From NCBI GenBank assembly GCA_025602905.1, contig JAHLKI010000001.1, positions 372,001 through 436,000 on the forward strand: a stretch of 64,000 bases of DNA. The letters run 5' to 3'. The position numbers were made by a program, and so were the translations under genes. Below, one piece after another: positions 17,919-39,004 of the stretch. The notes under the pieces are model-generated. The model saw only the letters and a list, made by a program, of their open reading frames with translations, made no database searches and had not been told where the DNA came from. The DNA is from Phlyctochytrium arcticum. Its lineage: Eukaryota > Chytridiomycota > Chytridiomycetes > Chytridiales > Chytridiaceae. Position 1 is the first letter of the stretch; every line of letters begins with the position of its first letter.

Positions 17919-17973
17919 AGTGAGTCTGGGGAAGCCTTCACTTTGAGCCCTATGGTTACTAATTAAGTTTCCG

Positions 17974-17984
17974 GGATTCGAACC
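17974..17984 (-). promoter_or_regulatory. Pol III B-box-like motif in the left inverted repeat
   Basis: The minus strand reads GGTTCGAATCC, the exact B-box consensus of tRNA genes. GTTCGAATCC recurs on the plus strand at 18308 and 18350, and a decayed copy lies at about 18205. I find no full tRNA fold around them. Function is unknown; it could be chance, a tRNA relic or a pol III factor site. Confidence 0.35.
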
Positions 17985-18149
17985 TGGTCGGCTGGATCCA
18001 GCGAGTTGTCTCGTGACAAACGGCTCATTTGTGGGGTCAGGTGGACTGCAATTCGAGGATGTTCGGGTGGATTCAGCGAGTGACCATCCCGACCCTTAGG
18101 TCGCCTTCGTGGTCATCCCGTCGCCGCGTAGCAAGTTGCAGACGAGACG

Positions 18150-18224
18150 AGTGAGTCTAGGGAAGCCCTCACTTTGAGCCCTATGGTTACTAATTAAGTT
18201 TCCGGGATTCGAAGCTGTTCGGCG
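18150..18224 (+). repeat. Internal second copy of the left element terminus
   Basis: From AGTGAGTCTAGGGAAGCC through CCCTATGGTTACTAATTAAG this repeats the outer end (17919 onward) with few changes. The right inverted repeat lacks it. It looks like slippage or a nested-end event during protein-primed replication or integration. Confidence 0.8.
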
Positions 18225-18536
18225 ATGTTCGGGTGGATTCAGCGAGTCATCATCCCGGCCGTCGTCGTCGCGTAGCAAGGTATCTTTCCTGGATACCAGG
18301 CGCCATCGTTCGAATCCAACTACTATCTTTCCTGACCAGAGGCGCCATCGTTCGAATCCAACTACTATCTTTCCTGGATTCAAAGACGAGCAGTAGCAAG
18401 TTGCATTTATGACGCGCAGCGACATTTATGGTGTAATATATAAGATACATCAATGTGTGCTTAATAGAAACTACGCTTGTCCTTCTTGCTCCTGCAACGG
18501 AGGCATTTTCAGGCAAAATTGATGGAAACCGATGGA

Positions 18537-19569
18537 TCAGTCTTCGCGTGAAGTCGCACCGTAGGGTAGCTTTTTCTTGGGAACTCGCTTGCTAGTTGGT
18601 AACATAACGGATATATCTCGTAGCCGTTCGTTCTCTCGCTCCCCAGCAGGCATTTTCTGAGTCTCTACGACAACTTGAAGTTCAGACTCTTTATAGCTGC
18701 GACGATTTTCCATCCCATCCTTACCGGTAACGAAATATCTGTTACCCTTCTTACTCGTAACTGAATATAGACCTTTGGTAAAGCGAGCCTCATAACCTTT
18801 TGTGAACTTGTTCCTGTTGAGAAGCAACCGCACTTTGGTACCTACTTCTATCCCCTTGAACTTGGGTTCTTTTTGTGCAACTGGTTCTTGTGTGCCATTG
18901 ACGATATCTACTGGTCTCCGTTGCGTTGTTCCGTGTATTGACTTGTTCAATCCTGATGCGATCTCGCTGATTACATTCATCCAGTTGTTGTGGCCAGTCG
19001 CTGTTGCATACTTGAATAGAATCGTTTTCAAAGTCCGGTTGGCTCGTTCAATGATACCTATGTTCATGATCTCCCGCGGTATTGGTACGTTGCTGAATAT
19101 GCTCTTTCTTTAACAACTTGGTCATATTTGCATTCAGAAACTCTGTCCCATTGTCGGTAGTGAGAACAGACGGTGATCGTTCTTTGAATATTTTCGCGAA
19201 CGCAGCTGCCACATCCTTCCCTTTCTTGTTTTTTAGACCAACAGCCCAAAAATAGCGCGAATAAATGTCAACAATGGTAAGAATGTATCGAAACCCATTA
19301 TTTTCGCTGACTAGCTTTGGTAGTTCGATTAGGTCGGCCTGCCATTCTGCATCAGTTCCAGATGCAACAATGTGGCGGAATAGCTTCTTTCGCTGTACGG
19401 CCTTATGGACTTGTGCGGTTTCCTGTTTCGCAACGAAAAGCGCGACTTCTTTGAGCGAAATATCTGCGTCCGGATAGAGTCGCCTTATGTGACCTAAGAC
19501 CCTTGGACCGCTTTGGTATCCTGTCGCTGGATTGTAGAAAACGCTGGAGATGATCTTTTCATTTGACAT
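18537..19569 (-). CDS. Retroviral-type (DDE) integrase, interrupted
   Basis: The first frame, 19569-19048, starts at ATG with FYNPATGYQSGPRVLGHIRR and holds the first two catalytic Asp residues, in EWQADLIELPKL and LTTDNGTEF. The second frame, 19067-18537, has the catalytic Glu in NIGIIERANRTLK and an SH3-like C-terminal region (KVRLLLNRNKFTKGYEARFT). The frames overlap, and a +1 phase change near 19060-19090 separates the second Asp from the Glu, so neither part alone is an enzyme. The fold and the order of blocks match Polinton integrases. I see no chromodomain. It would insert the element and make the 6-bp target duplication. Decay, sequence error or a translational shift are all possible. 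Confidence 0.88.
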
Positions 19570-19687
19570 AGCGCAACTTCCTTACATATATGCCAATATA
19601 AAAATTTGACCACCTGCACATCAGAAATCATTTCTCCGCTCATCTCCATTGTATCATTATATGACAACCGTAAGAGACCCAATCGAC

Positions 19688-22600
19688 CTAATAGAGTGTT
19701 TGGTACAAGAGACATATCACTATATTGGACCCAGTTGGGATACTGAGGCTTCCCATCAATGGCGCCACAATTGTCCAAGAAATGTTTGTTCCTGCTGCGA
19801 CATATCCTATCCATGTCAAAGGAGCCGCTTCCCCTCTATTTGTAGTTAGAACAGCATTCTGGGTAACGTTAAAAAGATACTGGGCTTGTGGAGATGCGCC
19901 ATTAAATAAAACTGATGCCGTTATAGAGTACACGCCAGTTAAAGGTACAGCGGAAATGTAGAATGTGCCGGCTTGAACATTGGCCCTGGTAGACCACGTT
20001 CCAACACTTAAAGGCGATTGCTGATTGTTGGCTGATATACTACCTGCTGTTTGGCAAACCGAAGAAAAGTAACGGTGTCCTATCTTCATGAGTTCGGTGC
20101 AAGCGATAGTTTTTGCTATTTGGGCGCCTCCATTTACAACCAATGCTCCTGTCATTTGGCCTGTAGTATCGCTGGTGTTATTAGCCTTCAGTGTATTACA
20201 AACCAATTCCCCAGTCATCAGGTTGGGCAAATTAGGTGCTCCGCTCGACAAACTTGTGAGGTTAGCATGCAGTGGTTGCTTGTTTGCCAATGTTGTAGTG
20301 AGACTGCTCCCTGCGAGAAAGATATCAGATCCGACATACAGAGATTTTGCAATAGCCACTCCCCCACGCACCTGCAACGCACCATTTGTTGTCGAACTTG
20401 AATCGGTTGTAGCGTAGACGAAAGTTTGTCCATTGCCACAAATTCCATTGCAACACTCGTCCCTCCATAGAACTTAAACGAATTGCCATCAGTATTCTGT
20501 GGAATGGAAAGCCACATAGTGTAATCGGCCATTCCAATAGCGTAATCTGCGATTGTAGACGTTATAGCCGGGTACAGAATAATCTTACTGCCGGGTGATC
20601 GTGTAGAAAGAGTTGATGGTGCTATCCCACTTGTACCAAAGAGTAGTAATGGACTCGCTTGAGATAACCCTGTGAGAAGACTGCTCAAAGGCTGCCGGGA
20701 GGACAGGTCTACTTTACTGGCAGGTAAGATGCCACTTACATCTGATGATGCAAGATCGACGACCGATTTGTTTGAAAGTGAACCAAGTTGACCTAATCGC
20801 GTCTCAATGGGAGATATGCGGTTGTTGAAGTCGGTACTTAAAACGTACAAAGGAGTATTCACAAGCCTTGCAAAGTCTAGATTTCCTACGGTATCAGCGC
20901 TAGATAAATCCACAGATGCCTTGAGCGACAAAGCTCCAAAAGCTGGCTTGCCCGTAACATTAGTCCAGTCAATCTGACCACTGGAAGCGATACTCGAAAG
21001 GCCTAGCGTTGTCTTGATTTGCGAAGCATTTGAACTAGTAATCAATGGTTGTAACGTGGACACATCAACTTTGCTAATCGGGAGAACTCCAGTAACATCG
21101 GTGCTCGATAAGTCAATAGTGTCTTTGTTACTCAATGCTTTCAATTGCGATAACCTTGTTTCGATTGGCGTGAACTTGTTATCAATAACAACTTGTCGAG
21201 AATTGTAAGTCGTGAGCAATGTATAACTCGACAACGGGATAGCAGCGATCAGTGTGTTGACAAAAGCCTCGGTAGCGACCTTTTGCCCCTTGGTAAGTAT
21301 ATCGTCACTGGCATAGATCTTCTTGGTTGTTGAGATACCGGTCGAATTGATGCGTAAACACTCTTGTAAAGTTCCGCTTGAACCTGTTGATGAAGACAAT
21401 ATGAGTGACGATCCATAGTTTCCATCGTCCAAAACACTTATCTGGCTTGAGACTCTTGAATTGAAAGGCGCAAACTGGATGTATTCCGTTGCATTGGAAT
21501 TCTGAACCAGCGAAAGGTTATCCAATCTTTTCTCTGTTCCAAATCCGCCCGAGTATCCATACACAGCGAACAGAATATTTGTGATAGCTGGCACATTAGT
21601 CAATCCGTTTGTGTGGCTCGTAACCAGTGTTCCATTCACATAGACTTCCAGCTTGTCGTAACTTAGGGTTAGGCGCACGGTCGCCCACGTATCTCGAGGT
21701 AAAGAGGGTCCAACTTCTTTGATGGATGAGTCTGGAGCGGTTATCCGTGTGTAGTTGAAATAACCGGAAAACCAAACATTCCATCCTTGACAGAGCAGCT
21801 GAATCCCTTCATCTTGGCGGAACGAAGAATAGAACAGATCGGCCTGAACGGTCCAGTACCTAGACAATGAGGGGACGGTGTAAGAGATCGAACCGTTTGA
21901 GTGTGTTTGATTGCTAGCTTGCAAGACAACCCACTTGTTGGCGCTGTCATATACAGCATTTCCCGACAATGTTCCAGTTGGGGTTGTGGTAAATGTTTCA
22001 TTTAGGACGGTTGTCGAGACGTTATCAACACCTGAAAACGTTAAAGAATGAGTGATGTTGCTTTGTTTCGCTGCTGATGCAGTGTCTAAAACCGTTTGTC
22101 GACTGTCGTAAACACTTTGCGAAACTTTTCCCGCAATCGAGGAAGTGATGCTGGAGAGATCTGTGGTTCGATTCAAATATAGCGACAAGTCGGGCGCCCC
22201 GGAGAGTAGTGAATAGGGTAGCTTGTTGGTAGTCGTTATCAGATCTTGCTTCAAACTAAGATTCGGAATGTTCGATAGCAGGGAATAGTCTAGACGATTT
22301 GATGTTGAGATAATGTTTTGTTTTGTGGCAATTGATGTATTGATACTACTGAGGTCAGTGTTCCGATTAAGATATACAGAAAAATCGGGGCTTCCACTGA
22401 TGACTCCATAGGGAATCGGATTAAGACTCGTTATTTTTGTTTGGTAATTATTGGCGACGTTAGCTTCAATGTCTGAGGTAACCGCTTCAAGATAGTCAAG
22501 TTTTTCCACTATAGGATCAAGACTATCAACTGTTCTTGGGACAATGATCTCGCTATCATAGCGGCGTAATATATCAAGATTGACTGCTTGCTGGCTATAC

Positions 22601-24754
22601 TCATTCTTTACCCCTAACCAGGAGCAGTCGGGTGGTGTATCAAAAAGCAATCGAGTTGCATCACATCCATTATCGGGCAAGGTTCCAATAACGACATTTG
22701 ACCCCGGTAGTAGCTTGGGTGTTCCGTCTTGGTTTGTGACGACGACCCCGTTTGAGTCTCGCTCTTCTCGGCGCTCCCGTCCAAAGATTGCCAACCACCC
22801 ACCTGCAAGAGATCCTCCTGTGACAGCACCGCTTAAGCCTCCTATAGCCCCGATCGCTGATGAAGCAGAACCTGCTGCTCCACCAAAAAGGCCCCCAAGT
22901 CCAGATAGAATACCATTGAGGCCCCCTGTTATTGAGACAACGTCGCCTGTACCGCTTCGAAGAACTTGGCCTTCACCAGTGTCATTTTGAGTTTCAGTTG
23001 GTTCATCCGCGTTTCTTTCGATCCTAAGGTTGTCGATGGTTGAAATGGTGTAAGGCCCCCCTGGCGAACCTGTTAACGATAACCCCAGTGCCGCCTATCA
23101 TCACCATTTCGTTACTGATAGTCTTACCAAGGACAGCGATGCCATTTCCCCCTACATATGGCTGCTCCGCTTCTGGCTGATACGTGCAGGAAATTGAAGA
23201 TCCGGTTATGCTGATATTTTGCCCAGCCACATACGCGCCACGAATGTCATTCCCGACACGGGTGACTCCATTTGAGCAAGTCAGGTTCTCAGATATATGA
23301 GTCTTTGTCCCGTTCATCTGTAAGCACCCGTCAACGGTCAAGTCTAACTCCACTTGATTGCTGCTATTCTCGTGAAGGCCATTGGAAAATGTCCGAGTAT
23401 CAGTCAATATAGAGCCGTCAAACTCAAGATTGCCTTGTGTTTTTAGGTCAAGATATACGTCGTTACCATTTCGGATACCAAGGTTGTTGTGTGATTGAAA
23501 CAGGAGACCGCTCGCTATGCGACCATTTCCGTCTACTCTAATTGATGAATTGTTGACGATCGCTGACGGATTCACTCCCAAATTACCATTTCGATCTAGT
23601 GCCAACGAAGCATCTGTCTGCACACTCACCAAGCGCCGACCGTTTGTCGCGGGAGATATATCAATGCCCGACCCCGCTTGATACAATTGTTGGACGTACG
23701 CTGCTGTCACATCGTGATTGCTATCAGGGCTCAAGTTACTGGCCAACTTGACTGAAGAGACATTGAGTACGCTAAGAGTATCATTGTACACAAAGGCTTC
23801 GCTTCGGTTCAGGCCCGAGATTCCAGAGTCGTAAGGGACTTGGCCAAGACCCGTGCTTCGGAAAGCTAGTTTGCCATTGGTTTGTTGAAAATTGTTTGTG
23901 TCTGTCGACAGTTTGATCAAGGACCCATCGGAGAATTCTGTTATGTCTGTATAAACGCTTAGAGCACCACTGCCCTTCAAAGTATCAGAGGCTTCTTGCT
24001 TGACCGCTGTCAGCTTTCCATCTTCGATCTCCAAGCGTTCACCAACTTGTAGGGACACAATATCATCTTCCTCGTTAAGGGGGAGCACATAGCTACGTTG
24101 TGGTGGTATCTTTGCTTTTAATTCACCTCGGTCAACAGCGAGTGTGTCGTTGTCTATCGCCAATGAGAGTTTGTGGCTATTTAGGGTCGAAAAGAACAAG
24201 GGATCATTGATTTTCAAACTAAGTCCTTTCGACAGAATGGACCCATCCCCATCTAGTAACCCTTCGTCGTCTCGAAAATGACTCGCATACTGGAGCTCTA
24301 TCTCTCTATTACTGTTGATGAACAGGGGCGATTTTGTCTTTGGGTCATTCACAGTCAGCTGCCCATTATTGGCGACAGCCATTGTGTCAATACTGAATCT
24401 CAGCCTGAGCCCATTTTCATCTCGCAACAAAGGTTCTTGAATGGGCTCGGATTTCAAGACTTCGCTGTCTACACCCAATATCCCCGCTGAATCAACAACC
24501 AAACCGTTTCCGAAGTTGAGCGACAACTCGCACGTCCCTTCTTCCGTAGCGACCTCGAGTGGAGCAGACGTAGTGATATCATTGATGTTCAGGGGACCAT
24601 TGTGGTTTGCGATCGATTGCGCAGTTACCTCCTCAAATGGTTTTAACTTGGTCCCCAAGTACGCACGTCCTAGAGGTTTGATATTTCCTAGTATATACGG
24701 ATTCGCTAATGCCGCGTTAGTCTGAAGGTCAATTCCAGAGAGTTTTTCGGTCAT
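19688..24754 (-). CDS. Giant adenovirus-fibre-like spike gene, interrupted
   Basis: This is about 1,690 codons in three frames: 24754 to about 23050, then to about 20450, then to 19688. The second frame has no ATG for about 750 codons, so it must continue the first; the break falls in a run of six G near 23057. The second break lies near 20430-20460. The N-terminal part has fibre-shaft-like repeats such as LSLAIDNDTLAVDRGELKAK and LGVDSEVL. A Gly/Ala-rich hydrophobic stretch follows (about 22800-22960), then a LamG/concanavalin-like lectin fold (about 21500-22005, with YDKLEVYVNGTLV). Tail-fibre-like repeats (LQPLITSSNASQIKTTLGL) come next, and a C1q/TNF-like head (about 19688-20080, ending NIVICLLYQTLY). 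It is probably a trimeric attachment spike; the receptor is unknown. I chose the ATG at 24754 because earlier ones overlap the upstream gene. Confidence 0.75.
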
Positions 24755-24791
24755 AACTCTTAGTTCATATATTCTACTGTATGAAGAAAAA

Positions 24792-25868
24792 TTAATTAGG
24801 CTTCCGTCTGTTTCCTCGCTTGGGTGGGAGTAGATCTCCTCGGAATGGGAGATCCGGGAAGTACTCGCCATCAACAGGAGGATACTCGCGGTTAAAATTA
24901 TTGAGGGAGTGACGCATACTTTCTAAGCGACGTTGTTCTTTCTGGCTTTGTGCAAAGTCTACGTGAGGGTAACGATCGCCAGCTACTCCCGGTGTTCGCT
25001 GCGAGTTTACATCAATCCGGAGTCCAGCAGGTTTCTTACCTTTGAACCGCGCTTGCTCAGTACCAGTCGGGAGTCTGCTGGGTGTTCGATTAATAGGCTC
25101 GGCGACAAGTAGTGGCTCTTTTCCTTTTCGTCCCTTGACCTTATCATGCTTTATTCCTACGGTATTCGGCTGTGAAACCCGTTGAGCTACTGAATGGACT
25201 TGTTCACCTAGTGAAGGCCCCCCCTTTGTGTCTGCCCTAAACTTTACAGGAATATCCTCTTCTAACTTCAATGGTCGCATTGGACGTGCTGGCTTGTCTT
25301 GGAGAAAGTGACTCGATCTCCACACAGATTTATCTGTTAAGTTGGGGTTGCGTTGGACATAGTATTTTCCCGTGTCTTTGATCGAGATATCAACCTTTCC
25401 AGCCGATCCGCTTCGCGGGTGATCCGAAGCAAGGTAAAGACCATTCAGGCCAGCTAACCCGTTACTAGGAGGGGGATCTTTTCGGAAAATCTTACCGCCT
25501 TGTTGCGGTATTGCACCAAACCTAGGCGCTGTCAGTTTTTGTCCTTGAATGTTTTCAGATTGAAGCGAGATTGCCTCGAGTTCTGCCTTTTCCGCAAAGA
25601 ATTCTCTGGTCGCCTGCTGTACCAAGCTGACTTTTGGAGGGGCTGTTATAATAGGCGGCTGTAGTATGTCAAACGAATGAGCAACTGTATCAACAGGCTT
25701 TCCAGCTGGGTAATCTAGTTTTTCCATCGTGCGCTTGTCATAGTTAAGACCATTTGGCGTCGTAATGAGTAAACGAGGTGGAATTGGAGCGGCCTTGACA
25801 ATATTTGCATTTGGCACAATTATGGCGTTCGGACCGGAGCGACCCCATTCAGTATCGATACTTTGCAT
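24792..25868 (-). CDS. Pro/Lys-rich protein of the provirus, candidate minor virion protein
   Basis: 358 aa, intact, starting at ATG 25868. It is rich in Pro, Lys, Arg and Gln, with no membrane segment and no recognised domain. Basic patches (KHDKVKGRKGKE, FKGKKPAG, PPKRGNRRKPN) suggest nucleic-acid contact or packing inside the capsid. It lies between the fibre gene and the small basic genes, in the virion-gene half of the element, and faces away from the gene at 25949 across an 80-bp shared promoter region. A virion role is inferred from position and composition only. Confidence 0.6.
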   Translation of the reverse strand: MQSIDTEWGRSGPNAIIVPNANIVKAAPIPPRLLITTPNGLNYDKRTMEKLDYPAGKPVDTVAHSFDILQPPIITAPPKVSLVQQATREFFAEKAELEAISLQSENIQGQKLTAPRFGAIPQQGGKIFRKDPPPSNGLAGLNGLYLASDHPRSGSAGKVDISIKDTGKYYVQRNPNLTDKSVWRSSHFLQDKPARPMRPLKLEEDIPVKFRADTKGGPSLGEQVHSVAQRVSQPNTVGIKHDKVKGRKGKEPLLVAEPINRTPSRLPTGTEQARFKGKKPAGLRIDVNSQRTPGVAGDRYPHVDFAQSQKEQRRLESMRHSLNNFNREYPPVDGEYFPDLPFRGDLLPPKRGNRRKPN

Positions 25869-25948: not shown

Positions 25949-26311
25949 ATGGTTTTTGCACGTCTCCGCCAACACGGCACCAATTTCCTCAACAAAACTC
26001 GACTGGCGGGCATTCGCTTGCACGGGTTTGCTACCAATGCTCACAAATTTGCCCAGCAAAAACTGCTGCCTGGTCTCCAATTAGCCAGTAAGAGTTTGAA
26101 ATATGCGACCGATCAAGCAAGAGAAAGTGACCTATTCGATGCCAAGCAGAAAGAGAATGCTCGCAAATTGAATGAGTTTGTCCAGCAAGGAGTGTCACAA
26201 TTTGGACGAGGTGTATCTGAGGTAGGGAATAACTTGCCTCAAATTGGGAATACAGTCATTCAATCCAGCATTTGGCTGATTTTTTTTTCTAACTTAATGT
26301 TATATCCGTAA
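25949..26311 (+). CDS. 120-aa provirus protein, possible pVI-like virion factor
   Basis: It starts at ATG 25949 with a basic N-terminus (MVFARLRQHGTNFLNKTRLA), continues as amphipathic helices (LQLASKSLKYATDQ, GVSQFGRGVSEVGNNL) and ends in a hydrophobic segment (SSIWLIFFSNLMLYP). No family is recognised. Adenoviruses and adintoviruses carry a small amphipathic virion protein (pVI) near the hexon gene; the position here fits that pattern, but sequence proof is lacking. It is the first gene of a short + strand pair, 14 bp before the basic 53-aa gene. Confidence 0.6.
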   Translation: MVFARLRQHGTNFLNKTRLAGIRLHGFATNAHKFAQQKLLPGLQLASKSLKYATDQARESDLFDAKQKENARKLNEFVQQGVSQFGRGVSEVGNNLPQIGNTVIQSSIWLIFFSNLMLYP

Positions 26312-26612: not shown

Positions 26613-27908
26613 TTACCAGACATAGACAACACTGATCTTGTTGGTTGTCACGCAAATGAGACAGTCAATGGCCAAGGTTACAAGTTGTTGGGTCATCACC
26701 GGAACTGAGCTTCGGTGCTCTGTTGTTATGTACATTTTTCCATCGGAATTGGAACAATCCATTCCGTCACCCCAAACGTTACTCTGATCCGATGAGGCGG
26801 CAAAGTTGGTCCCAATGGAGAAAAGCCCCGAACCGGGATTAAAGACCACGTCGTTGAGTTCTGACCCATAACCCCCAGCTGCAGTTAGGTACTGCAAATA
26901 CCACGCTTCTGGATCTTTGATAGTTCCGCTTTTGTTGGATGTCAAGTTAAGCTGCCACTTTCGTTCCTTTGGAGAGATACGTTGACCAGCAATTTCCACA
27001 TCAAAGCTCGATAGATCGCAATGAGAGTTGATATATGCTCGGTCCCTGGTTTTATCTGCAATGTTGGCAGGCTTTCGCCACTGCAACCTCCACGATTGGA
27101 CTGACTTAGCACGTCTGGTATTCACTACTATCTGTTGCATATTGCCCTCTACGGCGGGAACGACTTGCTGCTCCATATCCACAGTTGCGTGCCATAATTT
27201 TCCACCAGCTGCAAGGTCGGACACAATCTGTTGAATATATTCATTATCCAACTCCAATTCCGCGTAGTTGCAGGAAATATCCTGAAGCAGAACACGGGCA
27301 GGTTTTCGTCCGCTGGTTGAAGTGCCGGTTGCGAGATTTGGTATGAAATCTTCTATTCTTCCAATATTATAGGACACATTCACACCTCCAGTGATGGCTG
27401 GAAGCAGAATATGCTGCGGTGTAGCGAACGTGCAATTGAAAGGATGATGAACAAGAACACCACTTCCATCCGTCTGTAAACGGTCCTTAGTTCCGAATCC
27501 TTCGAGCTGCTTTTTCCATTGTTTTGTGCCCAAAGTGTCACCAGAATACCACGTCGAGAGGAGAGCTGGATAGTCCTTTGTTTGCGACATTTTCGTCTCG
27601 ACACCTGACCAACTCATATTGTCGCTTTCAATCAAAGCAGCCAGTCCAAGCTCCGTGTGCTCATACGTGTTTGGGCCAATATTGGAACCGACCTCATCAA
27701 CAAGCACATATGTTGCCTTTATATATAAAGTATTACTTACAAGGGCAGCGCTTGATGACTGAATTGTAAACGTCAGTGCAGCGCTTTGATCCGACAACAT
27801 AGTGAGCCCGCTGCTTGGCTTGATCGATCTCCAACGAATGTTGTTGCCAGCACTTAACAGATTTGTCGGAGGGAACTGGAAATTGTGCTCATTCATAAGA
27901 GTCGTCAT
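26613..27908 (-). CDS. Candidate major capsid protein (double jelly-roll)
   Basis: 431 aa, intact, starting at ATG 27908. It is rich in predicted beta strands, with alternating hydrophobic stretches such as AALTFTIQSSSAALVSNTLY, GGVNVSYNIGRIEDFIP, KWQLNLTSNKSG and the C-terminal TNKISVVYVW. These are as expected for the double jelly-roll capsid proteins of Polintons, virophages and adintoviruses. It is one of the largest intact structural genes and lies among other virion genes. Length is at the short end for the family (commonly 450-650). I assign it by position, size and strand pattern; a structure prediction would settle it. It shares the TTCTATATGTAC promoter motif with the 25868/25949 gene pair. 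Confidence 0.65.
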   Translation of the reverse strand: MTTLMNEHNFQFPPTNLLSAGNNIRWRSIKPSSGLTMLSDQSAALTFTIQSSSAALVSNTLYIKATYVLVDEVGSNIGPNTYEHTELGLAALIESDNMSWSGVETKMSQTKDYPALLSTWYSGDTLGTKQWKKQLEGFGTKDRLQTDGSGVLVHHPFNCTFATPQHILLPAITGGVNVSYNIGRIEDFIPNLATGTSTSGRKPARVLLQDISCNYAELELDNEYIQQIVSDLAAGGKLWHATVDMEQQVVPAVEGNMQQIVVNTRRAKSVQSWRLQWRKPANIADKTRDRAYINSHCDLSSFDVEIAGQRISPKERKWQLNLTSNKSGTIKDPEAWYLQYLTAAGGYGSELNDVVFNPGSGLFSIGTNFAASSDQSNVWGDGMDCSNSDGKMYITTEHRSSVPVMTQQLVTLAIDCLICVTTNKISVVYVW

Positions 27909-29717: not shown

Positions 29718-29749
29718 TTGTTTTCTTTTTCTTTATAACTCAATCATAT

Positions 29750-30060
29750 TTATGGTCGTCCTCGATGTTTTCCTCTCATAATTGCACACAACAGATAATG
29801 GCAGGTATCCATGCTGGTGAAGGCAAAAGCTTGGTTGTATTTCCGGATACTCGCAAGGAACTCTTTAGAGTCACTTGAGTCTCCTGAAAACAACTGCTGT
29901 AAGGCTGTATGCGGAGAGACGTGCATGGTAGCAGATTGAAGCCTTCTCGGCCTTCCACCTGAATGCGCCGCAGCTGCTGCACACGACATTCATTTCCCCA
30001 ACATCAAACACCGTCGCACTGTCTCGGTACTGCTCAAGAGAGCAGATCGCAACAGCCATA
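29750..30060 (-). pseudogene. Helitron-like N-terminal zinc-domain fragment, frameshifted
   Basis: Reading the minus strand, VFDVGEMNVVCSSCGAFRWK is followed, in another frame, by HTALQQLFSGDSSDSKEF and IRKYNQAFAFTSM. This is the order seen at the start of Helitron RepHel proteins: a CxxCgAxxW zinc motif, then L..LF.G....SkeF...IR.YN.A.AFTS. No Rep or helicase motifs follow; the frame soon ends. It is probably a remnant of a Helitron that inserted in, or was captured by, the provirus. A working short product cannot be excluded, but the phase change argues against it. Confidence 0.65.
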
Positions 30061-30329
30061 GCAGCAAATCGTTTGTAGTGGTTTTGTATTGTTTTGTTAT
30101 AATATACTAGCGGTTGGCGAGCCTCGCTTTGCGACAGCAATTTTGGTTGACAATGCATGCAGTCTGGTAATTATGCAGAGTCTGAGTACCTTTGCAAAAG
30201 CGCTCTTTTGTTTATGACTTGGATTTTCGAAAAGTGTACTGTAAAACTCCAAACCGGCCAAGCCACCTGATGAGTCATACCCAACATTTTTTATTAGTTG
30301 GATAGTTAGATACAAACATAAATAAGAAT
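30061..30329. other. Spacer inside the provirus
   Basis: It lies between the Helitron-like fragment and a small + strand ORF. No domain or strong ORF is seen. Confidence 0.4.
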
Positions 30330-30644
30330 ATGGAGTATATTGTCTGCCAGTTTGCCTATCATACAGCTGTTTATGAGTTGAGCTCAGTCCGTGCTGGAAA
30401 TCATCTAGTTCAATGGCACTTGGTCAGGACTGAATGCAAGGACATCGCTGCTACCCTTTCAGGTATGAAAAGCTTAACGGAATGTGACCAACGGAGCGAT
30501 CGCCAAAAACTATCAGTAACTTGTTTGCATCACGATCACGGTTACGATACCCTCATCGCTTACCTTGCTACAAAAGGAATCAAAATTGACTCGTCGTGGC
30601 GCTCCATCACTAATACAATAACTCCTGAGAATGTACAAGACTAA
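30330..30644 (+). CDS. Small provirus ORF, 104 aa, unknown
   Basis: It runs from ATG 30330 (MEYIVCQFAYHTAVYELSSV) and ends by overlapping the penton gene's stop by 4 bp, tail to tail. That tight packing also occurs at 32125-32128 and supports a real gene. It contains several His and Cys residues (TCLHHDHGY) but no motif I know. I checked it as a possible maturation protease and did not find the expected His-Asp/Glu-Cys order. Confidence 0.45.
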   Translation: MEYIVCQFAYHTAVYELSSVRAGNHLVQWHLVRTECKDIAATLSGMKSLTECDQRSDRQKLSVTCLHHDHGYDTLIAYLATKGIKIDSSWRSITNTITPENVQD

Positions 30645-31378
30645 GGCTCAGGGTCGTCGACGTCTGTCAATATTCCCAGCGCAATTGTGAAAGGTTGCGT
30701 CAATTGAATGGGAAATAGCGTCTTACTGTCCATAAGAGATAGATCCAGAGTGGATATCATATCGCCACTCCCTTGAAGCCAACTCCCGTTGTTCTCCCAC
30801 TCAAGGACGCTGCCAGGAGCGGAGCAGTCGATATGACCAATAACTTTGACTGCAGGGTTCCCCAACCACGTTGTATTTTTAGCGGGCAAGGAACGACTAA
30901 CCAGTAGAAGACTCGTCCCTATGGAAAAATCCGCGAGATTGGGAAAGGTGACACTCGTTGCCAAACCAGGCATCGAATATCTCCCAATACCGAGCCAGGA
31001 AGCTGATGATCCGTCTGCAATACTGAGAATCCGGAACGGCTGCGCTGCGTTCACCGTTATCTGTTTTTTGTCAATATCGTATGAGACCGTATAATTTTGG
31101 TTGCCTGAGCGATTCAGCGCCGCCCCCAATTCTTCTTCTATGTTGGCGATAGAATAGTCACTTGGAGGTAAAATGGCCTTCTTGGTAGCAGAGTCGTCTT
31201 CCTTGTCAGAGAATAATATCGTGTTGTTACTTGAATTGACGCTATGAAAGGACATAGGAATACTCATCCGTAAAATTTTGAAGCGGTCAACTAATTTTCC
31301 AACAAACCATTCTGGTTCACTTAGCCTGCCGTTCAGATTCCCACAGTCAGAACTAGCATAGAGTTCGTGGTACACCAT
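30641..31378 (-). CDS. Candidate minor capsid (penton) protein
   Basis: 245 aa, intact, ATG 31378. The block FHSVNSSNNTILFSD, then LPPSDYSIANIEEELGAALN, then YTVSYDIDKKQITVNAAQPF and SASWLGIG is a pattern I know from penton/minor capsid proteins of Polintons, virophages and related viruses (a Pro-x-GxYs-type loop followed by a helix and a WLG-like turn). The rest is beta-rich, as in a single jelly-roll. It is divergent from the ATPase gene across a 57-bp promoter region. A virion vertex role is inferred. Confidence 0.65.
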   Translation of the reverse strand: MVYHELYASSDCGNLNGRLSEPEWFVGKLVDRFKILRMSIPMSFHSVNSSNNTILFSDKEDDSATKKAILPPSDYSIANIEEELGAALNRSGNQNYTVSYDIDKKQITVNAAQPFRILSIADGSSASWLGIGRYSMPGLATSVTFPNLADFSIGTSLLLVSRSLPAKNTTWLGNPAVKVIGHIDCSAPGSVLEWENNGSWLQGSGDMISTLDLSLMDSKTLFPIQLTQPFTIALGILTDVDDPEP

Positions 31379-31435
31379 CGTCGCAAGTAAAAATTTGTAT
31401 TGATATCTATATGGTTAACAAGAAAAATAAAGGAA

Positions 31436-32128
31436 ATGGTGCTCATCGAACCTTACATTGCAAAGGCTAAAAAAGTGAAGCAAGATCGAAGAGTCCCCAC
31501 CCCGCTACCTTCTGGAACCCGTAAGCAAGAATTCTGCTGGTCGTGGCTCGCAGCACGAGAGTCGGGTAAGACATCACTCATTGCCGGACTCATCCACAGT
31601 GTGTATCATAAAGTAATGGATCACATTATATGGGTAAGTCCTACTGTGTTCTTTGATGAAGCACCCAGGTCACTAGCTAAGTACGAGAATGTAAGTTTCC
31701 GAGACAACATTGACAATGAGTCGCTGCAGAACATTTTGGACATTCAAATGATGAGAGCCGAACAAGACTTTAAGAAGAATCTTTTATTAGTGCTTGACGA
31801 CTGCGGCAATATAGCCAAAAGTAAAGAACTCCGTAAGACCCTAAACAAAATCTTTACGACAGGTCGTCACTACTCATTGAACCTGCTGTGCGTTTTTCAG
31901 GACCGTCGACAGTTAGATGGGATCCAGTTTACCAATAGCACTCAATGGTGTATCTTTAACTGGGACCGTGAGACGTTTGAAATCCTCGCAAGCAAGCTTG
32001 CCACTGTGACCTTTAGAAAGAAAGCATTGACCGATTTCTTCATCGACAATACCAAAGAGAAATATAGCTATGTTTATATTGACAAGCAGCGATTTCACAA
32101 AAAATTTGAAGACGACTATGTTACTTAA
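31436..32128 (+). CDS. A32/FtsK-type genome-packaging ATPase
   Basis: 230 aa from the ATG at 31436; the frame is open upstream but has no ATG. The Walker A motif is in WLAARESGKTSLIAGL, where the usual first Gly is Ala, and Walker B is NLLLVLDDCGN. A downstream sensor-like block, TTGRHYSLNLLCVFQD, is typical of the A32-like branch of the FtsK/HerA superfamily. Such enzymes pump DNA into capsids in Polintons, virophages and large DNA viruses. It overlaps the 3' end of the next gene by 4 bp, tail to tail. Its frame is intact. Confidence 0.85.
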   Translation: MVLIEPYIAKAKKVKQDRRVPTPLPSGTRKQEFCWSWLAARESGKTSLIAGLIHSVYHKVMDHIIWVSPTVFFDEAPRSLAKYENVSFRDNIDNESLQNILDIQMMRAEQDFKKNLLLVLDDCGNIAKSKELRKTLNKIFTTGRHYSLNLLCVFQDRRQLDGIQFTNSTQWCIFNWDRETFEILASKLATVTFRKKALTDFFIDNTKEKYSYVYIDKQRFHKKFEDDYVT

Positions 32129-33432
32129 TTCAAGAAATTCTCCTCTACAAAATGTTCCATCTGTGAGTCATACTTTCGAGTTGGTAGTTCCTTCACCTCC
32201 AGTAACTGTGCCGCGCTCGAAAGCTCATCTTCAGACATTAGCTTGTAGATGTTCCCACCGGCCTTGGTGATATGTTGCTGGGATACCAAGATCCCCCAGC
32301 CCAACAGCTTGACGCACTCCCACGCCTTGGTGCATTTGTGATTGAAGTTTTTCAGTGCCTTCTTGACACACTTGTCGTCGCAGGACTTGCCTAGTCCTTG
32401 GCAGAATAAGTAAATCCTGTCCCTTCTGTTTTCCTCTCTTACTACAAGATGAGAGCGCTTTTCCAGATGACGTCCGCGAAGGATATACCGCATATGTTCT
32501 TCGAAGCCAACTCCGGGGGCTACTGTTCCTGCCTTGTCATAGCGCAGTAACAAGTCCATATCATTATTGCGGTGTTGCTGAAGATGCCGACTGAACTCCC
32601 TGGTCCAGGGGAAGTATTCGACAAGATCTTCTCCGTCGGGATACCCCATTGTATCCAGCAACAATTGATGAGGTGCGGCGCGACTTGTTTTAGGCCTCTT
32701 CCTCTTCCTCGAGGGTGCCTCTGCGCCATCAGATTCGTCACCCTCAGATACGTAACCTTCTGGGGCTGCTTCTGGGATTGCTTTTCGGGTTGCTTCTGGG
32801 GCTGCTTCTGGGATTGCTTTTCGGGTTGCTTCTGGGGTAGCTTCTCGGGTAGCTTCTGGGATTGCTTCTGGGGCTGCTTCTCGGGTTGCTTCTGGTGTTG
32901 CTTCTCGGGTTGCTTCGTACGGTGGCGGGGGACGGAACCACTCGGAGATGTCTTCGTCAAAGCGATTTCTCCCGGTCCGGACCAATGCTCTCAGCAGAGA
33001 ACGTGACAAGTAGAGGGCGTGCTCAGATTTCAGCATTGCAGTGGCAAGTTGTGTGTAGTCTGACAATTTGGTGGAGTGCATTCCCGCGGCCTGGTCTAGC
33101 AGTATGATAAAGTCGTCGTCCATTTGAACATCCTCGTCCGTCTCTACCATAGACGTCGCGCCGTCCTCATCCTGAGCTTCCTTGTCAACCCACAAGGCCT
33201 CCGGGTCGGAGTCTTGGATCGTGTCCGGAGTGTCAATTGCTGATTCTTTGGAAGCGATATCTTCAAGATTAGCGTCTGCTACAAGAACCATAGGTAAGAC
33301 CAAGCTTGAGGGAGGATTATAATTCTGAACAACCTTTGTTGAAGGGGCACTTCTTTGAAGCTCTTGTTCGATGGAAGGTTTTGGCGGTCGGCTCGATCCC
33401 GTTCTTAGTACAGGACTTGCAAAAAATCTCAT
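32125..33432 (-). CDS. Provirus protein with PPPY motif and Glu-Ala-Thr-Arg repeats
   Basis: 435 aa from the ATG at 33432. Its first part is acidic and unstructured. In the middle RPPPPYEATREATPEATREA begins a Glu/Ala/Thr/Arg/Pro repeat tract encoded by a minisatellite, followed by a basic patch, RKRKRPKTSR. The C-terminal half looks folded and Cys-containing (FCQGLGKSCDDKCV). PPxY motifs bind WW domains of Nedd4/Rsp5 ubiquitin ligases and act as late domains in several viruses; such a role here is a guess. It shares a 48-bp promoter module with the gene at 34437. Confidence 0.65.
   Translation of the reverse strand: MRFFASPVLRTGSSRPPKPSIEQELQRSAPSTKVVQNYNPPSSLVLPMVLVADANLEDIASKESAIDTPDTIQDSDPEALWVDKEAQDEDGATSMVETDEDVQMDDDFIILLDQAAGMHSTKLSDYTQLATAMLKSEHALYLSRSLLRALVRTGRNRFDEDISEWFRPPPPYEATREATPEATREAAPEAIPEATREATPEATRKAIPEAAPEATRKAIPEAAPEGYVSEGDESDGAEAPSRKRKRPKTSRAAPHQLLLDTMGYPDGEDLVEYFPWTREFSRHLQQHRNNDMDLLLRYDKAGTVAPGVGFEEHMRYILRGRHLEKRSHLVVREENRRDRIYLFCQGLGKSCDDKCVKKALKNFNHKCTKAWECVKLLGWGILVSQQHITKAGGNIYKLMSEDELSSAAQLLEVKELPTRKYDSQMEHFVEENFLN
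32750..32925. repeat. In-frame minisatellite of 12-bp steps
   Basis: Variants of gcttctggggct, gcttctcgggtt and gcttttcgggtt alternate about 14 times inside the PPPY gene, all in frame. Copy number probably varies between copies of the element. Confidence 0.85.
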
Positions 33433-33502
33433 CAATGGTCTGATCGCTGGTAGCCTCCATTGTGTGTTTGCGTGGACTAGGCCGACTGAAAACCTTGCTG
33501 AT

Positions 33503-33522
33503 TGGACTCCGCGCGGAGTCCA
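33503..33522. promoter_or_regulatory. Perfect 20-bp palindrome at a promoter
   Basis: TGGACTCCGCGCGGAGTCCA is a perfect inverted repeat. It lies 22-41 bp downstream of the minus-strand TATA box (33544-33553), around the expected start of transcription of the PPPY gene. It could be an operator-like protein site or an RNA hairpin in the 5' leader. Confidence 0.6.
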
Positions 33523-33543
33523 GCCGGGGGCAGGAGGGGACCG

Positions 33544-33591
33544 CCTTTTATAGAGTTCTTTTGTTTACTTTATTTGATAACACTATGACAA
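33544..33591 (-). promoter_or_regulatory. Shared provirus promoter module, copy 1
   Basis: On the minus strand it reads TTGTCATA, TTATCAAATAAAGTAAACAA, then CTATAAAAGG. The same order with few changes is found at 34491-34542. It lies 112 bp before the PPPY gene's ATG. Confidence 0.65.
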
Positions 33592-33617
33592 TACCAGCTT
33601 CACTGGCTTACAAAGCG

Positions 33618-34437
33618 TTACACAGTCATTTGAAGCCTGATGGCCACCTCACAAGACCCAACCTCAAACTTGGTACTGAGATCTGGCATCCAGCGTCCAG
33701 GAGGTTCCAGCAAATAGGAGGGAACGGTCCCGTCGAGCTCCGCCTCAAGTCCACATCGCTGACATTCACACAAAGGAGACGAGATGTGGTATTGCTCACA
33801 GTTGACACATTTCTCTGCAGGAAGACTAGTTGAAAGGTCTGTTTGATGGCTGGCGCACGCTTCACAACTACATAATCCACAAGTATCACAAGGATTCTTG
33901 CAACTTGCTGTCCCGTCCCAAGTGTCGTACTCCGTGAGAAACTTTCGTTCGGCATCAATAAATTGACAGGCAACATCGGAAAGCATGAAGGATATTTCTT
34001 CATCGAACCTGCGTATGAGGCAGTTCCTTAACTTAATCGTGTAACTGTACCGTTTGCGGAATGAAGAGACAAGGAGCTTGTCTTGTTCGGCCATTGTTCT
34101 CTTAACGAATTTGTAAAACTCGCTACAAGTTGCTCCTATCATCAACTTCGTTCTAATGCTGCAACGGGGAAGTATGTGCATAAGGAAAATGTCGAATGGA
34201 ATCTCAGGAAAGCGTTGATCTGCACCCTTGTCGTTTTTGAGTGGTCGAACAGGTTGTCGAAAATAAAATTGCAATCCAGGTAAGAAGTCCTTTTTTGCCT
34301 TCCAGTTCCCTTTCCTGAAGCATACATCGCGTTTTAAGATCAGCATTTTCACGTCGCAGCTTCGAATTTTCGTCGCGTAGATCACGTAGGTAGTCGCGAA
34401 GCTCGGTGCTTACGGGTTCACGGCAAGGCTCGGTCAT
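33618..34437 (-). CDS. Coiled-coil/F-box-like/Cys-rich protein, interrupted
   Basis: It starts at ATG 34437 (MTEPCREPVSTELRDYL) with a coiled coil (DENSKLRRENADLKTR). Near 34286, in a run of six A followed by GG, the phase changes and the reading continues in the next frame. That frame holds an F-box-like motif (FPEIPFDIFLMHILPRCS) and a Cys-rich, probably zinc-binding region (CDTCGLCSCEAC, CVNCEQYH, CECQRCG), and ends at 33618. One A fewer would keep a single frame. With the gene at 29040 this makes two F-box-plus-coiled-coil genes in one element. It may target host proteins to ubiquitin ligases; this is inferred. Confidence 0.6.
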
Positions 34438-34490
34438 TGCGATTGATCTGGTGAAGGCGAGGGCCCTGGGGGGAAATTTGGGTAAGACTG

Positions 34491-34542
34491 CCCTTATATA
34501 GAGATTCAATTGTTTACTTTACTTGATAAAAGTCTATGACAA
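34491..34542 (-). promoter_or_regulatory. Shared provirus promoter module, copy 2
   Basis: On the minus strand it reads TTGTCATA, TTATCAAGTAAAGTAAACAA, then CTATATAAGGG. It lies 54 bp before the ATG at 34437. It matches copy 1 (33544-33591) over nearly its whole length. Confidence 0.65.
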
Positions 34543-34648
34543 ATTGACGCATTACGGCCCTTTGATGTGATCTACAAGCGCAGCAATTTTCCAGTCCTAG
34601 GCGACCAATTTTTTTTCTCTTCGACATCTTCAGAAAACACACACAAAG

Positions 34649-37600
34649 ATGACTACTCAGAAGCCGGCCAAAACAACCACGGTGTTCGACGCTGTGTGGT
34701 CCTTTGAAACAGGAAACGGTGTGAGGACAGTAAGACAGCAGTTCAGCAAAAAGTTACGCCATCCGAACCTGTTGTCCATTCACAAATTTCTACGGAAGTA
34801 TGCAGCGCAATTTCACGCCGACAAGAATATATTGCTACACGATGTGCGCATTGATTCTCGCAACAACCAGCCGACAGACTATCCGCCACTGTCTATTCCG
34901 AGACTGTATCAGATCAGCTTCAAAATAGCATATCTCTTTGGTCCCAAAAACGCACCTGCAGATTACAAGACAGGCAAGACTGGCCTTATGGGACCGTATC
35001 GAAAACTATTTTCCTCGCGTGAACAGGCGCACGCTTACGTTAGCACGGAGACGGACGAGTGGGCCCGCAAGGTGGAATCTGGAGAACAGAACCTTTTAGC
35101 AGATTCAGTTGGTCTACTTCATGAAGTCAAAGGTCCGCAAGAAGTCAATATCACGGAAATATCACCCGAAGAGCTCACGTACGCAAGAAATGTACGTATG
35201 CGCAAGTCAAAAGAAGAAACTGTTCATTGTTCCGTAGGCGAAGCTATCACATTGCGGAATGTCTGTGTACTACAGTATCTCGTAGACTTTGGCAGTGCTT
35301 TGGCCAACAAAATCAAGAACAAGGCAGGACAAACCAGAGGCTGGAAACGAGGATACCCAAGAAATGTTCTCTCGATGGCGAAATGGTTCAAAATGGATAA
35401 CCCAAGTGAAGGCGTTTCGGCCGAAATGGTACTTTGCTTTTGCAAAGCCTTCAAGTTCAATCTCTATGCATATGACGGCTGGAACTGCAAAGTCATAGAA
35501 TATCGTGTCAAAGATGAGGTGGAAGACCCTGAGAAGAAACGAAGCAATGAGCGGAACACTGAGACACTTATGTTTTGGATCAAAGACGAACACGTATTCC
35601 CAATCCTTGATAAGGGCGTCAGGGCGTCGCTCACCCACCAAACCGATGGCAAATTGGGTGCAACGAGACAAAAGGCAGAAGGCGAAGTCATTGGGATTGA
35701 TACTGAGGAAGAAGAATTTCGACATCTGATCTGCAGCAAAGTGAAAGGAATTGTGATCATTACCGAGGACACCAATATGGAAGATTACTACAAGATTATG
35801 CTGGACGAGACTGGAGTGCACCCCTTGGTGGAAATAATCGGAGATGGAATCCGCACGATCCGAAATGAATTCGTCATTGTCAAATTCTGCGAACAAGTTG
35901 CTGAAGCGACCCAAGCCGCAAAATTAATGAATATTCCTTATACCGGTCAGAGCCTTACTTCTCTTGGTATGAAGTTCATGAAGAACGTTTTGGGTACTAT
36001 AGAAGAGAGTCAGTATACTGATCATTTACGCTCCATCGTTGGCGGCGGACATTTCCTTCGAAGTCAAGTCAACATTGCCCCACAAAGGATCTGCGAGTGT
36101 TCCGTACCTGGTTGTTTCATGATGGGGGTGAGTTGGTCAGAGGGTCATCACCCTACCGAGCGACTTTTGCTTCCAAGTGGAAAGCAGCACGAGGGAGAAC
36201 TGGACCCGTTGTTGATGACAACAGTTGATATCAACAACAATTACCCAAGTAATATGTTCCATATGCAGTCAGGATTTCCCATTTTTTCGACTGGAGACGA
36301 CATAGAGGAATGGCATATATCAGAAGAAGAAATGGGATTCACCAAGAAACTAGCGGATGACGAGCCGTCGTTCTTCTTTTGCGTGACCAGCGCCGGATCG
36401 GAGGACAACAACTGCGTCAAACCATTTTGGCACGGAAACGGATTCTATGACATTGAAGTTGTCAAAGTTGCTCGAAAGTACAAATATCCATTCAAAATCA
36501 CACACAGATTGCGAGCTAAGAATAAGGCGCTACCTAAGGACTTCTTTCAACCTTTCTTAACGAAACTACAGGAGATTTTTCCAGCGGAGGACGCAGAACT
36601 AAAGAAGCTATACAAGATCATTGCAGTATGTACCATTGGATGCTTAGGGACCAAACGCAACTTCCACGATACGGCTACCTGCACCACCTACGACCGGGAA
36701 ATGATGTCGTATCTCTACTGGTCCGCTTTGCGATTTTACCAAGAAATAAAAAGTGTGGAAACGTGCTTGTAACACACAACGAGCACGCTGGAGGCTACAC
36801 TATTCACGCAAGACTTGAAACCCAACGTACCACGGATAATCGTCCGATCAACGCAAAGATTGTTCAGTACACATATGTAAGACTCTATGATATGTGGAGA
36901 AAGGTACAAGAATGGGATTCCTTGACCGAGTTGATACAAATTCGCACCGATGCAATGACATTCCTCTTCCCCGATATTGAGACCAAGCGACAGGCTGATA
37001 GAATGCTTGCAACAGAGACAGATTGGAAGATTCAAGACTTCAAAGCACTCAAATCTCCCAGAATGCGAAATTCCAGGGACTTATTGTCGATACGGAACGC
37101 AGAGAAACAACGGATCACCGTTTACGACAACGGAGACTGCACGCCTGAGTTCATTCTCAGTCACCAAAGCGGTGCTTTCATTGACGGTAAACCTGGTGTT
37201 GGGAAAACAGCTGTCATCAAACGTCTAGTCAAGCACCTGGAGGAAAACGGTGACCCTTACGTTGTATGTGCCTTTTTGAACCGAGTAGCTGACCGACTCG
37301 ACGGGAAGACGATTCATATGAGCCTTGGTCGACGCGGGTTTGGCCAAGTCAAATATGTTATCGTTGATGAGGCTGCGATGTTGAATGCTGACTTATGGAG
37401 GTATCTGTTGGATTACAAGCGAAAAGATCCTGATACCGTTTTCTACCTCTTTGGAGATTACAGGCAGTGCAAACCGGTCGAGGAGGGCAACTACGATTAC
37501 GAGAACAGCAAAATAATCGACGAACTCCTTGGTCAGCAACCCGTGTGGATCACCATTCAGAAGAATTATCGGTACGGCCCGGAGACTGAACATATGCTGG

Positions 37601-38553
37601 ATAGGTTCTGGGAGAAACCTTCAAGTTTAACCCACGATTTTCACTTCGAAAACAACTTGACCTCACGAACGCTGGTATGCACGCATACAGATCGTAAACG
37701 GGTCAACCTTCTGCGAATGCAGAGACTTGAAGAACGACAGGTTGAGAAGAACGTAGCTGGAGAGTGGCTCTTTCGCAAACCTGGCTCGTGGTACAAGCTA
37801 CAGGACTTATATCTCACAGTTGGCCTCCCTGTGGTTTCTTTCGAAAAGCATCCTCACTATGGCATTGATAACAGGAATGCAACTTACAAGGTTCTATCTT
37901 GGAACCGAATGGGAGCCTGGAAAGGCATTCGTGTTCCGCGAGCGAAACGACCTATCAAACGTGGCAAGAGGAAGTCGCCAATGCCGGATACGGCGGTAGC
38001 ATTGGTTGGATGGGATTATGAGACAGATCAACTGGACTTCACAACCATAGTTGACATCCCGCTTCCAGAATTCCAACAATTATTTTGCCCTGCTTACGCT
38101 CTCACCGCAAACATTCTACAAGGTTGCACTATAACTGGCAGTTACACCATTCTCAACCCTAAGAAATTTGAGAAGCATCAACTCTACACCGCACTCTCCC
38201 GGTGCAAGGACAAGGATGATATCAATATTATTGATTGGCCAGAAGTAGCTGTTGACGAACAGGCCTTAGTGGCTCGACTGAAGCGAAATGTTGGCAATCT
38301 CTACGGATCCACCTGGAAGGAGTTCATTGATCAGGCAGAGCTTCCAAAAGGCTGTACGTGGGAAGGTTACGGTCTAGAATTCGAAATCGACCACAAGAAA
38401 CCCATCGAAGCGTTCCGGAAAGAAGGTGTTTGCGACCGAGCTTTGCTCGGAACCCGCAAAGCGGATGAGGAAGCCTATAATCACTACTCGAACCTGCAAG
38501 CACTCAAAATTGAGGAGAATAGAAGCAAGAAGGACAAGCGTAGTTTCTATTAA
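34649..38553 (+). CDS. Family B DNA polymerase joined to SF1 helicase and HNH-like tail, interrupted
   Basis: The first frame (34649-36772) holds the polymerase N-terminal region, motif A (TVDINNNYPSNMF, Asp 527) and a motif B-like block (KKLYKIIAVCTIGCLGTK, about residues 652-669). After a -1 phase change in a run of five A (about 36748-36752) the second frame, to 38553, holds motif C (IQIRTDAMTF). It then has a complete SF1 (Pif1/RecD-like) helicase: Walker A DGKPGVGKTAV, Walker B VIVDEAAML, LFGDYRQCKPV, and LTANILQG with YTALSRC. The C-terminus has an HNH-like signature (FEIDHKKPIEAF, then HYSNLQALKIEENRSKKDK). Motif C lies in the second frame, so the two frames must form one gene. It probably replicates the element, by protein priming if family rules hold. 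The last 30 bp lie inside the right inverted repeat. Confidence 0.82.
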
Positions 38554-39004
38554 GCACACATTGATGTATCTTATATATTACACCATAAATGCAACTTGCT
38601 ACTGCTCGTCTTTGAATCCAGGAAAGATAGTAGTTGGATTCGAACGATGGCGCCTGGTATCCAGGAAAGATACCTTGCTACGCGACGACGACGGCTCTGC
38701 GGGAGGCCACTTACTACGCAACGACGACGATGGCCGGGATGATCACACGCTGAATGCAACTTGCTACGCGACGTGGTTCGCTGCTCGTCTGCAACAACCG
38801 TTTGAATCATTTGAAGATGTCACCCAAGTGTCAGAGTGATCACTCGCTGAATCCACCCGAACATCCTCGAATTGCAGTCCACCTGACCCCACAAATGAGC
38901 CATTTGTCACGAGACAACTCGCTGGATCCAGCCGAACAGGCTCGAATCACGAAAACTTAATTAGTAACCATAGGGCTCAAAGTGAAGGCTTCCCCAGACT
39001 CACT
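38524..39004 (-). repeat. Right terminal inverted repeat
   Basis: The reverse complement of the left repeat, from the outer GACTCACT end to AAGCAAGAAGG. It lacks the extra terminus copy and one tandem unit found on the left, and has its own insert (about 38690-38830). The polymerase-helicase gene ends just inside it. Confidence 0.92.

Follow-up and report, generated by a model that had tools for sequence, protein, structure and literature searches.

What kind of element is integrated in the DNA of the chytrid Phlyctochytrium arcticum (Chytridiales, Chytridiomycota; NCBI taxonomy), and is it a virus? The question is raised by a stretch of 64,000 nucleotides (the window, bases 372001–436000 of contig C1; C1, C3, C11 and similar labels denote contigs of the 31.48-Mb, 91-contig assembly), in which an element of 21,086 bp with AG...CT ends spans positions 17919–39004. 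A preliminary description had taken it for a complete Polinton/Maverick-type provirus. Known here from its genes alone, the element is very probably an integrated, now damaged polinton-like virus (PLV) of the chytrid, seemingly with exchange of the distal fibre between co-resident lineages.

Insertion, Ends, and Integrase

The element terminates in AGTGAGTCT...AGACTCACT, with TCCAGC immediately outside each end, a 6-bp match that would arise by chance at a fixed place once in 4096.

17913–17918, no strand: target site duplication TCCAGC, left, read at the element end
39005–39010, no strand: target site duplication TCCAGC, right, read at the element end
17919–18101, forward strand: terminal inverted repeat, left arm (183 nt, 94%), with more arms up to 18493
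38822–39004, reverse strand: terminal inverted repeat, right arm, with more arms from 38521
18537–19581, reverse strand: rve-type integrase in two frames (18537–19109 and 19048–19581), the rve match (E = 2.5e-14) lying in 19051–19581

The outer inverted repeat (183 nt, 94% complementary) is accompanied by three extra pairs of inner arms (71–77 nt, 99–100%). The AG...CT ends, the long inverted repeats, the perfect duplication and the integrase of the preliminary description were all recovered, and its fungal host is the chytrid itself. All three elements for which both ends were read carry perfect, mutually different 6-bp duplications (C1, TCCAGC; C3, CTCAAT; C33, CCCGTC), so that the other copies it had proposed to seek in the genome do exist, with duplications of their own. 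Insertion with 6-bp duplications beside an rve-type integrase gene is thus observed directly, for family members at several sites.

The Replication Gene Fuses a Probable Polymerase to a Helicase

34649–38553, forward strand: PLV-type polymerase-superfamily 1 helicase fusion in two frames (34649–36772 and 36538–38553), with an HNH-like C-terminus by eye

The second frame matches helicases (AAA_30, E = 1.6e-13; Dda-like, E = 4.8e-17), and the polymerase half and the helicase share a single open frame of 1301 aa on C3 (from residue 102 on) and of 1307 aa on C11; at the level of sequence, the fusion of the two halves is certain. The first half is probably a polymerase. The window protein contains DINNNYPS (motif A), RTD (placed as motif C), GKPGVGKT, and a Cys and a His as in an OTU-like protease, where the motif and domain names are our own assignments, made partly from PMC11071308. 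Of these, the C8 copy (two frames, 35–39% identity overall, C-terminus outside the coverage) keeps DINNN, RTD, and both the Cys and the His, together with GKPGTGKS, which is nearly identical to GKPGVGKT. At the C-terminal end, an endonuclease VII family matches at just E = 0.088, and a Protein Data Bank sequence search with the polymerase half gave no relevant match.

As described in PMC11071308, many PLVs and transpovirons carry a protein with an OTU-like domain, an exonuclease-less palm, a helicase, and an HNH or GIY-YIG end, and motif C of such proteins is without its first aspartate; a different helicase-polymerase fusion appears in PMC12721341. The window motifs fit the PLV polymerase-helicase fusion (Tlr1 type), and we therefore file the element as a PLV, which would make it a new lineage of an already known kind. 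The “family B polymerase” of the preliminary description holds at the level of these motifs, and not in the Pfam scan of frame 34649–36772.

A canonical, adintovirus-like Polinton/Maverick with a full protein-primed polymerase (pPolB) of its own would also have AG...CT ends and a 6-bp duplication, and the window integrase is 44–50% identical to those beside canonical pPolB on C25, C54, C7, C26, C6, C3, C10, and C12. We nevertheless consider such an origin very unlikely, since DNA_pol_B_2 matches neither frame 34649–36772 nor, when the family was searched genome-wide, anything at this locus, the replication gene bears a superfamily 1 helicase, and no protease family matched at E up to 1 in the 18 scanned frames of the element, a scan that a divergent protease could escape. 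What stands of the earlier reading is an rve-integrase element with viral gene content and a 6-bp duplication in a fungal chromosome; the assignment to Polinton/Maverick proper gives way to the polymerase-helicase fusion, and the picture of an intact element to its broken frames.

The Capsid Module Is Probably Related to That of a Known Chytrid PLV

26613–27908, reverse strand: major capsid protein (MCP), by homology (hhalign profile link; order with penton kept; dN/dS, the ratio of nonsynonymous to synonymous rates, 0.035–0.095)
27960–28394, reverse strand: small charged protein, flanked by the penton and MCP genes at many of the loci read (e.g., L012, L016, L019, L022, L023, L026)
30641–31378, reverse strand: minor capsid (penton) candidate, 64% identical to P0007 and 28–33% to other lineages
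31436–32128, forward strand: A32-like genome-packaging ATPase (Pox_A32 match in 31436–32125, E = 1.3e-7, 31.8 bits versus a cut-off of 22.8)

The order of penton candidate, small charged protein, and MCP candidate is common to distant elements (many of 19 loci; L018 is ambiguous). MCP identity between lineages is 19–22%, and hhalign connects the window MCP family with seven MCPs of another lineage in the same genome at 97.7% (E = 1.8e-12, 340 columns). Four of those seven align with SPPG_02195 of Spizellomyces punctatus at 68, 67, 44, and 44% identity, and a profile built from both lineages found 11 matches, Spizellomyces and Powellomyces proteins among them. By profile, the window MCP belongs to the SPPG_02195 family, and SPPG_02195 is, we infer, the capsid gene of the PLV in PMC7805220, a link made by host and not by accession.

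Proteins 95–97% identical to the window MCP lie on C11 and C3. Further relatives (62 and 57% identity) were found in ENA records. The contig that carries the former measures 8165 bases, the same size as that of the P0007 penton (63–64% to the window protein), and P0007 itself has a DUF5901 match of E = 1e-4 that falls short of the cut-off. The candidate capsid genes of the preliminary description are both present, with homologues in the same order elsewhere, a jelly-roll fold being putative for both; its packaging ATPase is confirmed by a Pox_A32 score above the cut-off.

Integrated virophages resemble the element in size and ends. That likeness would suit a virophage that needs a giant virus to multiply, an origin that the Spizellomyces-type MCP family and the presence of a fibre gene make extremely unlikely. 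The genome gave no match to capsids of nucleocytoplasmic large DNA viruses (NCLDV) either, a result that says little because the control was also without a match.

Copies of the Element and the State of Their Genes

The C3 copy (108065–124162) is shorter than the window element and is without the stretch equivalent to approximately 29978–34950, including penton and ATPase. Compared piecewise (505 bases, C3:108301–108805, left out), the C1 and C3 copies are 98.3–99.6% identical with gaps counted, differ by substitutions at 0.2–0.4%, and occupy different targets. Both contain a nested insertion that is absent from the C52, C11, and C33 copies.

28440–30306, no strand: nested insertion of approximately 1.87 kb

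On the simplest account, the C1 and C3 copies, each at its own site, would both descend from a single element that carried the nested insertion; gene conversion is a possible alternative. The nested insertion itself holds an open reading frame (ORF, 29040–29717) with an F-box-like match below the cut-off, as well as a portion of a dispersed repeat that occurs over 10 further times in the genome. A short stretch on C16 (622993–625978), which matches the element ends and has an integrase in a 378-aa open frame, is perhaps a small integrase-only element.

In the window copy, the integrase and the polymerase-helicase each occupy two frames and the fibre three, so that “complete” applies to the outline of the element and not to its genes. 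The compared pieces of C1 and C3 show 10 distinct length differences (11 rows, one place twice), of which just two adjoin a run of at least four equal bases; most are therefore unlike homopolymer sequencing errors, and the one of these two that falls in the polymerase-helicase could be such an error. One C3 frame (334 aa) contains words from both window integrase frames and reads through the split between them, while another reads through the first fibre split. The C3 copy is itself broken in MCP and fibre, and relatives with more open genes exist. Introns are improbable as the cause of the split frames, as C3 or C11 frames continuous through the polymerase, integrase, and first fibre splits speak against them.

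Purifying Selection on Viral Genes

Within the window's family, we calculated dN/dS between copies from Nei-Gojobori counts. The MCP gave 0.035 for C1–C52 (dS 1.41, near saturation), 0.095 for C1–C11, and 0.039 for C52–C11; the ATPase gave 0.060, 0.067, 0.091, and 0.151 between diverged copies; and the polymerase gave 0.140 (C11) and 0.155 (C52) versus diverged copies. By these counts, the capsid, ATPase, and polymerase genes of the family are under purifying selection between diverged copies. The unequal dS of C1–C11 among genes (0.15 for MCP, 0.29 for polymerase, 0.94 for ATPase) suggests recombination within the family. The MCPs of the close pair C1–C3 have one nonsynonymous difference, and the differences of this pair would fit decay after insertion, as expected.

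These values bear on the view that the element is a self-copying transposon that keeps capsid genes as baggage and makes no particles any more. The copies are indeed chromosomal, the window and C3 copies are damaged, and C3 has its own 6-bp duplication without penton and ATPase. We regard this view as decidedly unlikely, because MCP and ATPase are constrained between diverged copies and because a long fibre gene, needless for a transposon, is open in several elements.

Co-Resident Lineages

To count related loci, we clustered the matches of seven queries lying within 12 kb, using every row for MCP (19), ATPase (54), polymerase-helicase (8), and integrase (30), 12 of the 14 rows for canonical pPolB, and 50 places hand-picked from the 79 and 97 rows for the fibre after removal of secondary fragments. 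This census gave 81 clusters, 39 with at least two gene kinds, 48 with ATPase or MCP, and 23 with fibre plus ATPase or MCP; a cluster does not equal an intact virus, and two elements may share one. At least three lineages are visible in the genome: the window's family (MCP on C1, C3, C11, and C52), one of the Spizellomyces type, and one whose elements have a canonical pPolB (e.g., C7 and C3:282–294k).

The window integrase, close to those beside canonical pPolB, is 25–30% identical to those at Spizellomyces-type loci, whereas the window ATPase shares 36–40% identity with the ATPases of loci that have a Spizellomyces-type MCP, and 25–28% with those accompanied by canonical pPolB at C7, C3:292k, C10, and C12. 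With the two kinships reversed, the modules seem to have different histories.

Canonical pPolB (DNA_pol_B_2) was found at C17:59661, C3:282466, C25:411495, C54:13338, C6:706649, C26:400414, and C7:987073, most adjoining an rve integrase. Mirror-image pairs of viral genes with equal scores occur at C40:8453–30834, C18:112873–132061, C9:391258–404582, and C33:215967–243230 and may be either head-to-head dimers or assembly palindromes.

Fibre Similarity between Lineages Suggests Exchange of the Distal Part

19688–24871, reverse strand: fibre gene with adenovirus-fibre-like start and long distal part, in three frames (23024–24871, 20218–23094, and 19688–20473)

Frame 23024–24871 matches Av_adeno_fibre (avian adenovirus fibre) with 25.1 bits versus a Pfam cut-off of 22.7, and the next fibre frame has a Laminin_G_3 match below the cut-off; a Protein Data Bank sequence search with the first frame gave no relevant match. 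Searches of the genome returned 79 and 97 fibre fragment matches, and open frames reach 1976 aa in other elements.

Measured in 50-residue steps against C17, C26, and C29 (with a second C26 frame set aside, its alignment score of 45 being at chance level), fibre identity is 20–47% up to approximately residue 200 and mostly 40–88% beyond, the lower steps there being three in C29 (26–31%) and one in C17 (36%). The start that precedes this step near residue 200 diverges like the penton it would bind. Between the window and C17, identity is 82/398 (21%) for MCP, 68/209 (33%) for penton, and 75/197 (38%) for ATPase, and for the fibre 48/155 (31%) over residues 35–200, 238/387 (61%) over 201–599, and 436/768 (57%) in the distal part; the same three fibre parts give 38, 62, and 55% against C4. 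C17 and C4, which belong to one lineage, share 356/416 (86%) in MCP, 216/217 in penton, and 200/200 in ATPase, with 71, 78, and 61% in the three fibre parts. The fibre thus changes fast within a lineage yet is unusually alike between lineages, which we read as exchange of a receptor-binding module; the comparison is suggestive of co-resident lineages having swapped the distal, receptor-binding part. Between-lineage DNA matches are 66–75%, save short pieces, and any exchange is therefore not recent.

The likeness between lineages, these DNA values included, could instead reflect slow evolution of a constrained shaft without any exchange, shaft repeats being open to constraint, and in C52, a member of the window's own family, fibre residues 146–248 are just 58% identical (59/102), which is not above the between-lineage level. 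Against slow evolution, the C17–C4 fibre outpaces MCP, penton, and ATPase in change, and C52, with an MCP identity of 92%, has only 39/122 (32%) over fibre residues 44–170. We therefore hold a constrained shaft to be rather unlikely. Within the 10 kb read, the C52 fibre gave no match beyond residue 248, its gene being fragmented there; the fibre region of this element also contains a frame (L079, C52:32337–33158) that by eye resembles an inserted reverse transcriptase.

Opposing Results and a Proposed Life Cycle

Several results weigh against a PLV with exchanged fibres. The Pfam scan of frame 34649–36772 found no polymerase, and hhalign of the polymerase-helicase against the genome's canonical pPolBs gave 0.2%, with three sequences a side and very shallow profiles. 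AlphaFold2 models from four-row alignments had mean pLDDT values of 37.9 (MCP) and 38.1 (penton), which speak neither for nor against a jelly roll, including the double jelly-roll MCP fold of Preplasmiviricota, and no capsid protein came up when the Protein Data Bank was searched by sequence with two MCP profiles. No relative turned up among the viral contigs in any of eight scans. In the close pair C1–C3, the polymerase differs by 8 nonsynonymous and 3 synonymous changes (ratio 0.715), a pair in which no selection is seen. For the exchange, the C52 stretch of residues 146–248 counts in the same direction, and the finding that the fibre is the fastest-changing gene within a lineage comes from a single pair (n = 1), a thin control.

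For the PLV that we favor, the gene content suggests a life cycle as follows. Outside the chromosome, the element would exist as linear DNA with inverted repeats, its free copies ending in AGTGAGTC. The protein-primed polymerase-helicase fusion would copy this DNA, and the A32-like ATPase would fill it into a capsid built from the 26613–27908 and 30641–31378 proteins. A long trimeric fibre, its N-terminus seated on the penton, would carry the virus to new cells, probably the wall-less zoospore. It is conceivable, and we offer it tentatively as somewhat less than an even chance, that one fungus houses three or more lineages of infectious DNA viruses drawing on a single pool of receptor-binding fibre modules, in which the capsid-binding start follows the virus and the rest is traded, as in phage tail fibres. 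If true, fungi would have genuine small DNA viruses that enter through zoospores.

Remaining Genes and Insertion Site

24792–25868, reverse strand: 358-aa protein (ORF) with no Pfam match
25949–26311, forward strand: 120-aa protein (ORF)
32125–33432, reverse strand: 435-aa protein (ORF) with a repeat of 12-nt period
33618–34346, reverse strand: 242-aa protein (ORF)

G+C per kilobase is 0.43–0.54 within the element and mostly higher in the flanks. The left flank gene encodes an NDH2-type NADH dehydrogenase and the right one a C1orf109-like protein; the insertion therefore lies between ordinary eukaryotic genes. A search of this assembly for an empty site with the joined flanks matched just the two flanks of this insertion, as expected for one assembly. 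At window positions 40377–41870, a 497-aa ORF rich in glutamine and proline has a Tc5 transposase DNA-binding match below threshold.

Comparison with Known Systems

Like Polintons/Mavericks, the element has an rve integrase, a 6-bp duplication, AG...CT inverted repeats, and an A32-like ATPase; it differs in that the locus is without a canonical pPolB match and without a protease match, and that the motif placed as motif C is RTD, not DTD. It resembles Tlr1 of Tetrahymena and other PLVs with a pPolB-S1H fusion (Tlr1-like helicase), which according to PMC11071308 have an rve integrase with a polymerase-helicase fusion and a replaced first aspartate of motif C, as the element probably does, and among which an HNH or GIY-YIG end is known. 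Unlike that group, it has a fungal host and an adenovirus-like fibre, and it is likened to Tlr1 by description, not by sequence.

The preliminary description considered such elements little described in fungi. PLVs of zoosporic fungi are, however, already published: PMC7805220 (Bellas and Sommaruga 2021) describes one in Spizellomyces punctatus along with PLV genes of Allomyces macrogynus, and puts forward double-stranded DNA viruses of fungi. The Spizellomyces PLV also has a chytrid host, and the window MCP is a profile relative of the SPPG_02195 family, with 21% identity to SPPG_02195 over 62% of its length. Chitinase is reported in 52% of the Spizellomyces PLV group (PMC7805220), and no chitinase match was found in the window frames scanned.

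Cryptophyte PLVs carry avian-adenovirus-type and laminin fibre proteins and give a hint of polymerase gene exchange (PMC12220804). The window element resembles them in a big modular fibre that falls into the same Pfam family and weakly matches Laminin_G_3, and differs in being fungal and in having no Peptidase_S74 match in the frames scanned; the proposed exchange between lineages is what our analysis adds. According to PMC10640383, double-stranded DNA viruses that infect fungi were not known in 2023. Among the matches listed in a search of the open-access literature, no title concerned P. arcticum PLVs or fibre exchange between PLV lineages. P. arcticum is, we assume, kept in culture. Dozens of viral loci in one chytrid, selection on capsid, packaging, and replication genes in one family, and fibres seemingly exchanged make the question of double-stranded DNA viruses of fungi testable in a sequenced species.

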